This document shows positions 953 to 5,887 of a stretch of 64,000 nucleotides of DNA, one piece after another. The DNA comes from Brachybacterium saurashtrense (GTDB lineage: Bacteria; Actinomycetota; Actinomycetes; Actinomycetales; Dermabacteraceae). Position 1 is the first letter of the stretch, and the number at the start of each line of letters is the position of its first letter. The translations under genes and the position numbers were made by a program. Below the pieces are notes generated by a model. That model was not told the origin of the DNA, did not search any database, and saw nothing but the letters and a program-made list of their open reading frames with translations. The stretch lies in assembly GCF_003355475.1 (NCBI RefSeq), contig NZ_CP031356.1, forward strand, positions 744,001 to 808,000, written 5' to 3'.

Positions 953-1435
953 TCAGCCCGTCACCTGGTAACGGGCGGTGAAGGAGGCGGAGGCCAGCTG
1001 CTGGGAGAAGATCGCGAAGCGGGCCCCGATGTGCGGGGCGTCGGGGTCCGCGCCCAGCGTCTCGACCGGCAGGGCGTGGACGGAGAACACGTAGCGGTGC
1101 GGCGGGCCGGCGGGCGGCTCCGGACCGTCGTACCCGGCGGTGCCGAAGTCGTTGCGCGCCTGCTTCAGGGAGGGGTCCTCGCGCGGGACCCCGAGCGGCA
1201 GCGAGGTGGTGGAGGCCGGGATGTCCCAGGCCACCCAGTGCCAGAACCCGGAGCCCGTGGGGGCGTCCGGGTCGAAGCAGGTCACCGCGAAGGAGCGGGT
1301 GCCCTCGGGCGCGTTCGACCACTGCAGGTCCGGGGAGAGGTTCTCGCCGCCGAGGTTCGCGACCAGCTGCTGCGGTGCGACGTCGGAGCCGGCAGGCGTG
1401 GCGGAGGAGGTGAGGGTGAAGACGTTCTCGGTCAT
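953..1435 (-). CDS. YbhB/YbcL family (PEBP-like) protein
   Basis: 160 residues, the normal length of bacterial phosphatidylethanolamine-binding-protein homologues. The family ligand-pocket motifs are present: DPDAPTGSGFWHW (about 57-69) and GPPHRYVFSVHAL (about 107-119). The cellular role of bacterial PEBP proteins is poorly defined; they are soluble and bind small anionic ligands. ATG at 1435 is preferred to GTG at 1444 because TACAGT lies seven bases upstream of the ATG. It sits between the GT4 gene and the tandem ligases on the same strand, but has its own promoter-like box, so operon membership is uncertain. Confidence 0.85.
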   Translation of the reverse strand: MTENVFTLTSSATPAGSDVAPQQLVANLGGENLSPDLQWSNAPEGTRSFAVTCFDPDAPTGSGFWHWVAWDIPASTTSLPLGVPREDPSLKQARNDFGTAGYDGPEPPAGPPHRYVFSVHALPVETLGADPDAPHIGARFAIFSQQLASASFTARYQVTG

Positions 1436-1489: not shown

Positions 1490-2764
1490 TCAGAATCCGT
1501 CGGACGAGGGGCGGGGGTAGTGCTGCAGGAACTTCTTGACCTGGTTCGCCATCGCCGCACGCACGTACAGGCGGCGCCGGAAGCCCTCCACCGGGTAGGA
1601 GAGCGGGTGCACGGTGCGGCGTCGGCCGATCTCCCGCACCCGCGCGCGCAGATCCGGATCCACGATGTAGCGGCGCAGCAGCGGCCAGGGCACGATCGAG
1701 TAGAGGATCTCCTCGCGAGGCACCAGCCGTGCCGGCTCCCGGTTCTCGACCAGATCGGCGACCACCGGCTCGGCGACGTTCGCCCCGGCGGCGGTCATGT
1801 AGTAGTTGTTGCGCCCGATGCGGGGGTTGACCTCGAAGAATTTCGCCACCCCGTCGCGCGGGTCGATCTTCACGTCGAAGTTCGCATAGCCGCGGTAGCC
1901 CGAGTGCTCGAGGAACCGCACGGACTGCTCGAACACCTCCGGCAGATCGGTGGTGAACATCGCCGCGGGGTTCCCGAGGGCGCCCGGGGTGTGCTCCTCG
2001 AGCAGCACCTGCGCGCCGCCCAGCAGCGTGACCGTGCCGCGGGTGTCCACGTACGCGGTCACCGAGAGCATCGCGGTGTCGTCCCCGGGGATCATCTCCT
2101 GCAGCACGAAGCGATCCCGGTACCCGGCCTCCGTCAGCCGCGCGACCAGGTCGGTCAGCTGCCGCCGGTCCTCGATCTCGAACACCTTGCGCTTGCCGGG
2201 GAAGGAGACCGCGTTGTACGCCGAGGAGCGGGAGGCCTTGGCCACCAGCGGCCAGCCCAGGTCCAGCTCGGGGATCGCCGGGGCGGTGCCGGCGGAGAAG
2301 TCGAGCACCTCCGTGCGGGGGGTGGGCACGTCGATCTCGGCGCAGAGCCGGGAGAAGGTGGCCTTGTCCGCCACCGCCTCCAGCACGTCGTCGTCCAGCA
2401 GCGGCAGGTGGTAGAACGCGGCGAGCTCCTCCCGCCGGGAGGCCAGCAGCGCCACCAGGAAGTCCGCGTTGGCCAGCAGGATCGGGCGGGTGCCGCCGGG
2501 GCGGGCGGCCTTGTCGCGGCCCACCTGCAGCAGCGCCTGGACCATGTCCTCCTCGGAGGCGGACATGCTCAGCTCCACCGTGCGCAGGATCGAGGAGTCC
2601 GCCACCGGCCCGGCCACGTGCCGGGTCACCACCGTGGAGATCGTCCCGTACTTCTCGTGGAAGGCGCGGGCCAGGGCGTAGATGCCGATGTCACCGCCGA
2701 GCAGCACCAGGTCGACCTCGGGGTCGGGTGCGGCGGGGTAGGGGTGCGGCGGGGTGTCGGGCAT
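1490..2764 (-). CDS. ATP-grasp carboxylate-amine ligase, D-aspartate-ligase-like (downstream paralogue)
   Basis: 424 residues. The N-terminal pre-ATP-grasp region reads LVLLGGDIGIYALARAFHEKYG (in two parts: LVLLGGDIG and IYALARAFHEKYG), then FPGKRKVFEIED in the ATP-grasp N-lobe, an MIPGDDTAM loop and FFEVNPRIGRNNYY (about 309-322), the metal/ATP-binding C-lobe. This pattern matches the COG3919 group; from memory it is very close to the enterococcal D-aspartate ligase Asl(fm), which activates the side-chain carboxylate of D-Asp with ATP and joins it to the peptidoglycan stem peptide. The substrate here is not provable by eye. ATG 2764 has a good AAGGA ten bases upstream; the open frame extends further but without similarity. 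It lies 44 bases after its paralogue, so the two are very probably co-transcribed. Confidence 0.8.
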   Translation of the reverse strand: MPDTPPHPYPAAPDPEVDLVLLGGDIGIYALARAFHEKYGTISTVVTRHVAGPVADSSILRTVELSMSASEEDMVQALLQVGRDKAARPGGTRPILLANADFLVALLASRREELAAFYHLPLLDDDVLEAVADKATFSRLCAEIDVPTPRTEVLDFSAGTAPAIPELDLGWPLVAKASRSSAYNAVSFPGKRKVFEIEDRRQLTDLVARLTEAGYRDRFVLQEMIPGDDTAMLSVTAYVDTRGTVTLLGGAQVLLEEHTPGALGNPAAMFTTDLPEVFEQSVRFLEHSGYRGYANFDVKIDPRDGVAKFFEVNPRIGRNNYYMTAAGANVAEPVVADLVENREPARLVPREEILYSIVPWPLLRRYIVDPDLRARVREIGRRRTVHPLSYPVEGFRRRLYVRAAMANQVKKFLQHYPRPSSDGF

Positions 2765-2808
2765 GGTGGCGGGGTCCTTTCCGGGCGGGGCCGGGCGAGG
2801 GGCGGGGA

Positions 2809-4068
2809 TCAGAAGCCGGTGTCGGTGGGGCGCGGGTACACGGCGCGGTACTTCCGCACGAAGTTCGCGCCGGAGACGACGGAGTAGGCCCGCATCCACA
2901 GGCCCTCCGGACCGTACCGGAAGGGATTGCGCAGGCCGCGCCGGGCCACCTGCCGCACCCACGCGCGCAGCGCCGTGTCCCGCACGTACCGCAGCACCAG
3001 GCGCAGCGGCAGGATCGTGTAGAGGATCGGGGCGGTCACCACCACCTGCGCGAGGTCGCGGCCGTGCACGCGGTCCTCCACCACGTGCCGGGCCACGCTC
3101 TCCCCGGCGGCGGTGACGTAGTAGTTGTTCCGGCCGATGCGCGGGTTGATCTCGAAGAAGCACTCCCGGCCGGTGCGCGGATCCACCTTCACGTCGAAGT
3201 TCGCGAAGCCCACGTAGTCCACCGCGTCCAGGAACCGCTGCGCGGCGGCGGTGAGGGAGGGGAAGTCCCCGGTGATCATCGCGGCGGGGCGCCCCAGCGC
3301 CTCCGGGGTGTGCTCGCCCAGCAGCACCTGGGCGGCGCACAGCAGCGTCACCTCCCCGCGGCTGGAGCGGTAGGCGGTCACCGAGCGCTGCGCGGTGTCG
3401 TCGCCCTCGATGAGCTCCTGGAACAGGAAGCGCCCGGTGAACCCGGACTCGCGCAGGCGCCGCACCAGGTCCTGCTGCTCCGCGGCGGACTCGAGGAAGA
3501 ACACCTTCTTCTTCCCCGGGAAGTCGACGTGGTGGTACTCGGCCGTGTTGGCCGCCTTGCCCACCACCGGGTAGGACCAGGGCAGCTCCTCGTGGCCGTT
3601 CCAGTCCGGCTCCTCGGCGCGGGAGAAGTCCACGATCACGGTGGGGACGGTGTCGATGTCGAGCTCGCGGCAGATCTCCGCGAACTCGGCCTTGTCGGCC
3701 AGGCGCGCGAGCAGGGCGGCGTCCACCTGGGCGAGGAGGTAGTGCGGCTCGAGCTCCGCACGGAAGCGGTCGAGGAAGGCGATCAGCGAGTCCGCGTTCG
3801 TCAGCAGCAGCGCGGGACGACCGGCCGGCCGCCGCGCCGCGAGGTCCAGCAGCGCATCGCGCATGTCCTCGTCGCTCGCCTCGGCGCCCAGCGTCACGAG
3901 ATCCGAGGTGACGGTGCGCTCGTTCATCGCCACCGGCACCCGCACCACGGTGGTGCAGCGCATCCCGTACTCCTGGTGGAACGCGATGGTGAGGTTCAGC
4001 GAGTTCAGGCCGGCGCCGAGGACGACGACGTCGAACCCGGGATCGACCGGGGCGGAGGGCGAGCGCAT
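2809..4068 (-). CDS. ATP-grasp carboxylate-amine ligase, D-aspartate-ligase-like (upstream paralogue)
   Basis: 419 residues, collinear with the next gene throughout: VVLGAGLNSLNLTIAFHQEYG at the N-terminus (seen as VVLGAGLNS then LNLTIAFHQEYG), FPGKKKVFFLES, LIEGDDTAQRSVTAY, and FFEINPRIGRNNYYVTAAG. The G-D-I to G-A-G change at the nucleotide-fold turn and many substitutions elsewhere show an old duplication rather than a recent copy. Expected reaction: ATP-dependent ligation of an amino-acid carboxylate to an amine through an acyl-phosphate. ATG 4068 is chosen because conserved sequence starts just after it and TAGGAT sits seven bases upstream; the open frame to 4149 is basic and looks non-coding. 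Possible job: adding one residue of a two-residue peptidoglycan bridge (see findings). Confidence 0.8.
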   Translation of the reverse strand: MRSPSAPVDPGFDVVVLGAGLNSLNLTIAFHQEYGMRCTTVVRVPVAMNERTVTSDLVTLGAEASDEDMRDALLDLAARRPAGRPALLLTNADSLIAFLDRFRAELEPHYLLAQVDAALLARLADKAEFAEICRELDIDTVPTVIVDFSRAEEPDWNGHEELPWSYPVVGKAANTAEYHHVDFPGKKKVFFLESAAEQQDLVRRLRESGFTGRFLFQELIEGDDTAQRSVTAYRSSRGEVTLLCAAQVLLGEHTPEALGRPAAMITGDFPSLTAAAQRFLDAVDYVGFANFDVKVDPRTGRECFFEINPRIGRNNYYVTAAGESVARHVVEDRVHGRDLAQVVVTAPILYTILPLRLVLRYVRDTALRAWVRQVARRGLRNPFRYGPEGLWMRAYSVVSGANFVRKYRAVYPRPTDTGF

Positions 4069-4189: not shown

Positions 4190-5887
4190 TCAGCGCCGAC
4201 GCAGCCACACGGCGGCGTCGGCCGGGAGCCGGCCGGGCACGGGCTCGGCGGAGCCGACCAGCACCTCCGCGTCCGCGAGGTCGAGGCCGTCCGGGCCGGC
4301 GGGCAGGGGCAGCTCCTGCTCCGAGGTGTTCACCAGCACCACCACCTCGCCGCGCACCAGGCCCAGCAGGCCCTCGGGCAGGTCCTCGAGGAATTCCACC
4401 GGGGCATCCGGACGGCCCAGGCCGTGCTCCCTGCGCAGCGCGATCGCGGCGCGGTACATCTCCAGCGTCGACCCGGGCACGCCCTCCTGCGCGTCCGCCG
4501 CCAGCGCCCCGAACTCCTCCGGCTGCGGCAGCCAGCTCTCCCCGGTGGGGGAGAAGCCGTACGCGGGGGCGTCCGCCCGCCAGGGCAGTGGCACGCGGCA
4601 GCCGTCGCGGCCGGGCACCCCGGCTCGCAGGTGGGCGGGGTCCTCGCGCAGCGCGTCGGGGATCTCCGCGACCTCCGGCAGGCCCAGCTCCTCGCCCTGG
4701 TACAGGTAGGCGGCGCCCGGCAGGGACAGCATCAGCAGCGTCGCCGCGCGGGCGCGGGCCAGGCCCAGAGCCGCGTCCGGCGTCTCCGCGCGGCCCAGAC
4801 CCTCGCCGAAGCGGTAGCCGGGCGGGAAGCCGTACCGCGTGGCGTGCCGGATCACGTCGTGGTTGGACAGCACCCAGGTGGTGGGCGCGCCCACGGCGTC
4901 GGCCAGGGCCAGCGGCTTCTCGATCGCCGCCCGCATCGTCTCCACGCCCCAGGTGGCCTGGAGGAATCCGAAGTTGAAGGACTGGTGCGCCTCCTCCGGG
5001 CCGATGTACAGCGGCAGCCGGTGCTCGGGGATCCAGGCCTCCAGCACCATCATCCGCTCGCCCTCGTAGGAGTCCAGGATCGGCCGCCACTCGCGGTAGA
5101 TCTCCAGCACCCCGTCGTTGTCGAAGTAGATCGGCACCTCGCCCTCGGGGATGTCCAGCAGCCCCTCGGCGTTGACGGCGGCGTCGGGCAGACCCTCGGG
5201 CTTGACCATCCCGTGGGCGACGTCCACGCGGAACCCGTCGGCCCCGCGATCCAGCCAGAACCGCAGCACGTCCCGGAACAGGGCGTGCACGCGCGGGTTC
5301 TGCCAGTTCCAGTCCGGCTGGGAGGTGTCGAAGATGTGCAGGTACCACTGCCCGGGCGTGCCGTCCGCCTCGGTGATGCGGGTCCAGGCCTCGCCGTGGA
5401 AGATCGAGGTCCAGTTGTTCGGCGGCAGCTCGCCGTGCTCGCCCCGGCCGTCGGCGAACACGTACATGTCCCGCTCGGGGGAGCCGGGCCCGGCGGCCAG
5501 CGCCTGCTGGAACAGCTCGTGCTCGCTCGAGGAGTGGTTGGGGACGATGTCCACGATCACCTTCAGGCCCATCGCGTGGGCGGAGGCGATGAGCTCGTCG
5601 GCATCGGCGAGGGAGCCGAAGCGCGGGTCCACGTCGCAGTAGTCGGCCACGTCGTAGCCGCCGTCGCGCTGCGGGGAGGTGAAGAAGGGCGAGAGCCAGA
5701 GGGCGTCCACGCCGAGGTCCCGCAGGTGGGGCAGGTGCGCGGTGATGCCGGGCAGGTCGCCCATGCCGTCGCCGTCCGCATCGGCGAAGGAACGGGGGTA
5801 GACCTGGTAGACGACGGCGTCGCGCCACCAGGGGGTCGTGGCGGCGTCCGCTCCGGGGGCGTGCTGGGCGGGGGACTGTGCGGTCAT
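4190..5887 (-). CDS. GH13 alpha-glucosidase
   Basis: 565 residues, cytoplasmic by lack of a signal peptide. The (beta/alpha)8 GH13 regions are in order: DIVPNHSS (113-120, region I), GFRVDVAHG with nucleophile Asp222 (region II), VLEAWIP with acid/base Glu283 (region III) and SNHDV with Asp344 (region IV). WWRDAVVYQVYPRSF at the N-terminus is typical of oligo-1,6-/alpha-1,4-glucosidases. It should split imported maltose or maltodextrins to glucose. It is the last gene of the mal operon, 97 bases after malG. ATG 5887 is preferred; a GTG at 5947 would add a low-complexity Ser/Thr stretch encoded by a tandem repeat. Trehalose-6-phosphate hydrolase or sucrose activity cannot be excluded. Confidence 0.9.
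   Translation of the reverse strand: MTAQSPAQHAPGADAATTPWWRDAVVYQVYPRSFADADGDGMGDLPGITAHLPHLRDLGVDALWLSPFFTSPQRDGGYDVADYCDVDPRFGSLADADELIASAHAMGLKVIVDIVPNHSSSEHELFQQALAAGPGSPERDMYVFADGRGEHGELPPNNWTSIFHGEAWTRITEADGTPGQWYLHIFDTSQPDWNWQNPRVHALFRDVLRFWLDRGADGFRVDVAHGMVKPEGLPDAAVNAEGLLDIPEGEVPIYFDNDGVLEIYREWRPILDSYEGERMMVLEAWIPEHRLPLYIGPEEAHQSFNFGFLQATWGVETMRAAIEKPLALADAVGAPTTWVLSNHDVIRHATRYGFPPGYRFGEGLGRAETPDAALGLARARAATLLMLSLPGAAYLYQGEELGLPEVAEIPDALREDPAHLRAGVPGRDGCRVPLPWRADAPAYGFSPTGESWLPQPEEFGALAADAQEGVPGSTLEMYRAAIALRREHGLGRPDAPVEFLEDLPEGLLGLVRGEVVVLVNTSEQELPLPAGPDGLDLADAEVLVGSAEPVPGRLPADAAVWLRRR

Follow-up and report, generated by a model that had tools for sequence, protein, structure and literature searches.

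The window analysed here is a stretch of 64,000 nucleotides from Brachybacterium saurashtrense (NZ_CP031356.1, positions 744,001 to 808,000), and the subject of this work is a pair of adjacent minus-strand genes in it that encode ATP-grasp ligases, candidates for the synthesis of the inter-peptide bridge of peptidoglycan. The upstream gene, ligase alpha (P0001, 419 residues), occupies 2809..4068 and the downstream gene, ligase gamma (P0002, 424 residues), 1490..2764, with a gap of 44 bp between them (2765..2808). These coordinates agree with a preliminary description of the locus, made from the DNA letters, which had reported two collinear neighbours of 424 and 419 residues lying 44 bases apart. 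Both products are Asl-like and are predicted to be bridge enzymes adding D-glutamate (D-Glu). They are true paralogues, because BLASTP aligns them with 201 identities in 422 positions (48%, E 1e-117), and the ligase trees show that they are old ones with separate orthologues in other species, which rules out a recent duplication. An ATP-grasp fold is predicted for both, and the core of the superfamily is conserved across their full length. Of the motifs that the preliminary description had assigned to the two proteins, FPGKxKVF, GDDTA and RIGRNNYY are indeed common to them, the last within NPRIGRNNYY (3118..3147 in alpha and 1799..1828 in gamma, minus strand), whereas the N-terminal AFHxEYG holds for alpha (AFHQEYG) but not for gamma (AFHEKYG).

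Alpha and gamma were the only members of the ligase family found in the host genome (3.72 Mb, single contig). The Pfam and NCBIfam models gave no specific name to either ligase, and PADLOC returned no result. Between positions 1300 and 4400 there was no promoter-like match, and the one terminator-like match lies within the alpha gene and is at chance level; judging from this layout, it is plausible that both genes are carried on one transcript. The genome holds a single Asp/Glu racemase gene, identified as MurI since it passes the glutamate racemase cut-off, and an aspartate racemase was found neither in the genome nor at the locus. There was also no genomic match to PF02388, the family of the FemAB transferases. 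FemAB-like genes occurred in only 4 of 47 Dermabacteraceae genomes (G002, G004, G005 and G025), and G004 has three of them, apparently side by side.

Two alternative cassettes at one site

Members of the ligase family were present in all 47 Dermabacteraceae genomes searched, and 46 of these carried two. The collinear alpha-gamma pair was intact in 22 genomes and fragmentary in two more (G016 and G029), while 19 carried a racemase cassette, in which ligase beta comes with a racemase gene and the divergent ligase delta lies on the other strand; one genome had a single ligase copy. Eight genomes (G015, G016, G026, G029, G030, G031, G032 and G039) were typed from match scores and positions only. 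No genome combined the alpha-gamma pair with a beta-delta pair. The racemase gene adjoined delta in all 22 delta-bearing genomes and stood beside the ligases in none of the 24 tandem genomes, and the two cassette racemases tested scored 171 and 163 bits against a TIGR00035 cut-off of 93.1. Genome-wide, 16 of the 24 tandem genomes had one PF01177 gene and the other 8 had a further one elsewhere.

In the Brachybacterium loci fetched, both cassette types lie between amylase- and maltose-transporter-like genes on one side and PEBP-, glycosyltransferase- and dnaJ-like genes on the other, all named by sequence reading. The window conforms to this arrangement: upstream there is an alpha-amylase-like gene and then sugar-transporter-like genes (4190..5887, minus strand), and downstream a small PEBP-like gene and then a glycosyltransferase-like gene (953..1435, minus strand), these being the two conserved borders of the cassette.

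Two loci call for comment. In G027 (L056, 7307-8648) the beta ligase of the racemase cassette is split into three reading frames; as the assembly is 85% complete, this may equally well reflect a sequencing error or a true pseudogene. A tandem pair is also found in MT835538.1 (L007, 23009-34265). This record bears the label 'Bacteriophage sp.', but over 11.26 kb it matches the B. paraconglomeratum chromosome at 99.1% identity, so that the label is most probably wrong and the DNA bacterial.

Ligase clades, signature residue and racemase linkage

A tree was built of 77 ligases. In it the racemase-linked ligases of actinobacteria, 19 in all, formed a single clade (support 97/87). Alpha and beta formed sister clades (100/99), and alpha, beta and gamma grouped with ligases of Ornithinimicrobium, Segeticoccus, Nostocoides and Kytococcus (99/98). 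Two tips probably belong to Cellulomonas fimi and C. gilvus, whose bridges contain D-Glu. Most members of the non-racemase clade have Asn as the residue that follows GR in the NPRIGR motif, with NPRIGRNN in the window pair and NSRIGRNN in Kytococcus (read from the alignment); the racemase clade, which has NPRLGRSN, and three lactobacillar proteins have Ser there. In a survey of 173 loci, all 46 distinct actinobacterial ligases of the Ser type were located no more than 107 bp from a racemase gene, whereas 119 of the 141 Asn-type ligases had no racemase in the stretch fetched and the remaining 22 shared their locus with a Ser-type ligase. The same survey included two ligases with Pro at this site and seven rows without a readable motif, that of Kytococcus among them. 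These counts are not independent, because many of the loci come from close relatives.

The two Pro ligases (NPRIGRPN; L102, 6278-7552, and L103, 5884-7137) sit on a long branch and possibly use another donor amino acid. Overlapping tandem pairs of Asn-type ligases were seen in Isoptericola cucumis (L164, 7619-10230) and Xylanimonas oleitrophica (L178, 7634-10230), and in one genus of the same order (L089-L092) an Asn-type ligase is paired with a Ser-type ligase plus racemase.

Ligase type and published wall composition

Among walls with meso-diaminopimelic acid (meso-Dpm, mDpm), type A31.1 denotes the bridge mDpm-D-Asp-D-Glu (D-Asp being D-aspartate) and type A31.2 the bridge mDpm-D-Glu2. The compositions compared below, missing residues included, are those given in the cited papers. 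A composition is also reported for B. huguangmaarense, but it was not paired with a genome and is left out of the comparison. A bridge of the A4-gamma type on meso-Dpm is reported only from Dermabacteraceae (PMC4062624). The host belongs to this family and to the same genus as the B. faecium, B. vulturis and B. avium genomes, and two ligases are typical of the family, so that the Brachybacterium-type organism that the preliminary description had surmised is borne out, presumably with an A4-gamma wall.

Outside the family, the residue type fitted the published bridge in four of four species. The Ser-type ligase of Cellulomonas flavigena (4,123,179 bp) overlaps its racemase gene by 4 bp, and the bridge is D-Asp (PMC3035266). 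Jonesia denitrificans (2,749,646 bp; L-Lys-L-Ser-D-Glu, PMC3035236), Sanguibacter keddieii (4,253,413 bp; L-Lys-Ser-D-Glu, PMC3035225) and Kytococcus sedentarius (2,785,024 bp; L-Lys-Glu2 murein, PMC3035214) each have one Asn-type ligase, and the sequence fetched around it contains no racemase. Within the family, the tandem pair is carried by B. faecium (3,614,992 bp), whose murein contains meso-Dpm, Ala and Glu and is of type A31.2 (PMC3035206), and by B. vulturis (3,796,663 bp), with a wall of Ala, Glu, Gly and meso-Dpm and no Asp (PMC6090031). The racemase cassette is found in B. avium (G003; 3,459,731 + 61,637 + 47,134 = 3,568,502 bp), in whose wall Asp is present (PMC6090031). B. vulturis and B. 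avium share 89% average nucleotide identity, and their walls were measured by one method in one paper (PMC6090031). The compositions in that paper and in PMC10581053 come from thin-layer chromatography of hydrolysates, which gives neither chirality nor position.

A rule by which the number of ligases equals the number of D-residues fits the Dermabacteraceae (two) and C. flavigena, Jonesia and S. keddieii (one each, the last two among the best four candidates scored per genome). C. flavigena has one strong match and a second at 45 bits; in seven Cellulomonas genomes, among 45 named genomes, a second match below 45 bits is another ATP-grasp protein and was not counted. The I. cucumis and X. oleitrophica pairs are left out of this count, the wall described being that of X. 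cellulosilytica. The rule was rejected: K. sedentarius, in which all nine candidates were scored, has one ligase and Lys-Glu2, so one enzyme per bridge residue is unsupported. Such a case lends something to the idea that, in the window as well, one enzyme builds the whole D-Glu2 bridge and the other has, for example, another acceptor or acts under other conditions. The tandem Asn-type pairs of I. cucumis and X. oleitrophica point the same way, since the congener X. cellulosilytica is reported with L-Lys-D-Asp. We nevertheless consider this division of labour unlikely, given that two ligases are kept in nearly every Dermabacteraceae genome and that each cassette pairs specific partners.

Probable exchange of cassettes between species

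The distribution of the cassettes was compared with a tree of a single marker, recA, built from the 4 kb around this gene in 43 of the 47 genomes (G016, G026, G029 and G030, with partial recA, were left out). On this tree the cassette types of the 39 typed genomes need at least 12 changes, and even when only well-supported branches are counted the tandem type requires at least 10. Cassette type is barely clustered: values as low turn up in 46 of 500 shuffles for the tandem type, and for the racemase type in 232. In three sister pairs of unlike type the flanks are 81-95% identical to near the cassette edges. Those of B. vulturis and B. avium are 88-93% identical and stop 86 to 319 bp short of the ligases, and inside the cassette there are only paralogue matches of about 70%. 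G009 and G023 show 87-90% identity close to the cassette, falling to 80% at greater distance, and the flanks of B. massiliense and G027 span the range of 81-95%. A further pair of unlike type, B. endophyticum and B. phenoliresistens (72-78%), is too diverged for a clear edge, and in it alpha and beta align together with the flank.

The window alpha grouped with B. paraconglomeratum and two relatives (97/95). In topology tests, for which the groupings were chosen after the trees had been seen, alpha rejected its recA clade (p-AU, approximately unbiased test, 1e-72), recA rejected the alpha grouping (4e-57), and gamma mildly rejected both (0.019 and 0.033).

We also considered whether a within-type similarity of cassettes exceeding that of the flanks could serve as general evidence of sharing, and rejected it: 135 of 245 pairs were positive, with a mean difference of 1 point. 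The rows of G018 at the top of that comparison are an artefact, its malF/malG values of about 50% coming from non-orthologous genes; without it, cassette identity exceeded flank identity in 117 of 226 pairs (mean -0.2). With a mean difference of about zero, recent cassette sharing leaves no general trace in these data, which counts in favour of a derivation of the scattered cassettes from an ancestor with both types by repeated loss and without exchange. It is nonetheless improbable that loss explains the pattern, since no genome holds both pairs, the three sister pairs remain alike to near the cassette edges, and alpha and recA reject each other's groupings.

Discussion

Taken together, these comparisons make it probable that the window pair are ligases of a D-Glu-D-Glu bridge and constitute one of two alternative cassettes exchanged between species. 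We infer D-Glu for both enzymes because MurI is the only Asp/Glu racemase of the genome and because the pair shares its Asn signature (NPRIGRNN) with the ligases of three genomes outside the family for which Glu bridges are published. Of the marks of a D-Asp ligase, a racemase gene in the cluster is missing at the window locus, and both window proteins have Asn, not Ser, after GR. The D-Asp donor that the preliminary description had also entertained for this organism is thus not favoured.

In the mechanism that we propose, each ligase would activate the gamma carboxyl group of D-Glu as an acyl phosphate and would join it to an amino group of a meso-Dpm-containing wall precursor. One ligase would attach the first D-Glu to meso-Dpm and the other would attach a second D-Glu to the first, so that meso-Dpm-D-Glu-D-Glu results, and the alternative cassette, with beta, aspartate racemase and delta, would give a bridge with one D-Asp and one D-Glu. 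As each cassette has either alpha or beta, and gamma and delta alternate, D-Glu may be the constant substrate of one partner, with the other adding D-Glu where it is gamma and D-Asp where it is delta. If the second enzyme has to work on what the first has made, it makes sense that both ligases are swapped as a unit. For the family as a whole, we think it somewhat likelier than its contrary that bridge type is set by this exchangeable two-ligase cassette, and that recombination in the conserved flanks has swapped D-Glu-D-Glu and D-Asp/D-Glu bridges about ten times or more among close species. Bridge switching might perhaps, and this is a guess, let the cell evade bacteriocins or phage endolysins for which the bridge is the recognition site.

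Several observations weigh against these conclusions. Only 3 of 5 Brachybacterium compositions match the cassette type: B. nesterenkovii (L109) has the tandem pair and only a MurI-like racemase, and Asp and Gly are reported for its wall from earlier work (PMC10581053), and B. equifaecis (L119) has the racemase cassette with only Ala, Glu and Dpm reported (PMC10581053). The three Dermabacter genomes break the strict pairing, with an alpha-type ligase and with delta and its racemase at a separate locus. The single ligase of K. sedentarius has been mentioned above. Ser is also present in two lactobacillar ligases (L005 and L006) whose 9 kb stretch contains no racemase, and they are exceptions to the linkage to a racemase gene, a mark that was modelled on Lactococcus lactis. 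The Ser/Asn signature may be an ancestral/derived difference and not the cause of specificity. D-Asp could be supplied by a D-amino-acid transaminase. Finally, the comparison with the characterised Asl(fm) and AslA was made through lactobacillar relatives standing in for them.

Some of these points would suit a mixed bridge (mDpm-D-Asp-D-Glu) in this organism, with one ligase adding D-Asp and the other D-Glu, for relatives of the AslA type add D-Asp (PMC4155827) and B. nesterenkovii combines a tandem cassette with reported Asp; the Asn in both window proteins, the lack of an aspartate racemase in the genome, and the tandem-bearing B. faecium and B. vulturis, reported without Asp, make it quite improbable. 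A function unrelated to the wall, for instance work on a cofactor, a secreted peptide or some other polymer, is very unlikely even though the neighbours of the ligases do not read as classical wall genes and ATP-grasp enzymes are diverse and here lack a specific model name, since the family occurs throughout the Dermabacteraceae and since in 7 of the 9 identified genomes the bridge residue on record agrees with the type of ligase (the misfits being the two Brachybacterium species above). The cell-wall role first put forward is supported.

The surprising element is the exchangeable bridge-type cassette, with two alternatives at one site. Bridge composition is a long-used marker in bacterial classification and is treated as stable by taxonomists. 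If our reading is true, it would be predictable from ligase clade, one signature residue and a racemase neighbour, wall type would switch between sister species through one cassette, and specific candidate D-glutamate bridge ligases can now be named. B. vulturis and B. avium offer a ready natural experiment on such switching. Searches of an open-access library, at the level of listings, brought up no description of a ligase pair of this kind; most Brachybacterium descriptions are in subscription journals.

Comparison with known systems

ATP-grasp ligases have been named in general as makers of D-Asp and D-Glu cross-links (PMC2922099). The nearest known systems are Asl(fm) of Enterococcus faecium and AslA of L. 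lactis, the latter an ATP-grasp enzyme that joins D-Asp to the stem lysine and is encoded in one operon with racD (PMC4155827). The relation to this type that the preliminary description had drawn is supported through lactobacillar relatives: profile-profile comparison of the actinobacterial family with proteins from Latilactobacillus curvatus, Limosilactobacillus fermentum and Lactobacillus crispatus (plasmid-labelled records) gave full-length homology (probability 100, E 3e-69, 402 columns), at about 23-31% identity to the window ligases. The L. curvatus ligase follows aspS and an amino acid racemase gene, that of L. crispatus is preceded by asnB, and that of L. fermentum has neither context. 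An asparagine-synthase-like gene (by sequence reading) also adjoins the ligase cassette in three genomes (L047, 3970-5760; L048; L049). By analogy with asnB in L. crispatus these neighbours suggest bridge amidation, and the D-Asp that AslA adds is amidated by an asparagine synthase (PMC4155827).

PylC, the ligase of L-lysine-N-epsilon-D-ornithine, is more distant, with 12-13% identity, a dipeptide-like free product and another pathway. PylC uses the alpha-carboxyl group of ornithine. The tRNA-dependent FemABX/BppA transferases also build inter-peptide bridges but differ in fold, and they take L-amino acids and glycine from tRNA. With Asl(fm) and AslA the window pair shares the ATP-grasp fold and, on our prediction, the addition of a D-dicarboxylic residue to the diamino acid of a wall precursor, and the racD-aslA operon has its counterpart in the racemase linkage of the delta branch. 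The known systems are single enzymes, whereas the window has two paralogues with no racemase partner; the lactobacillar proteins of this type have Ser after GR where the window ligases have Asn, and in the window the predicted donor is D-Glu and the predicted acceptor meso-Dpm or D-Glu.

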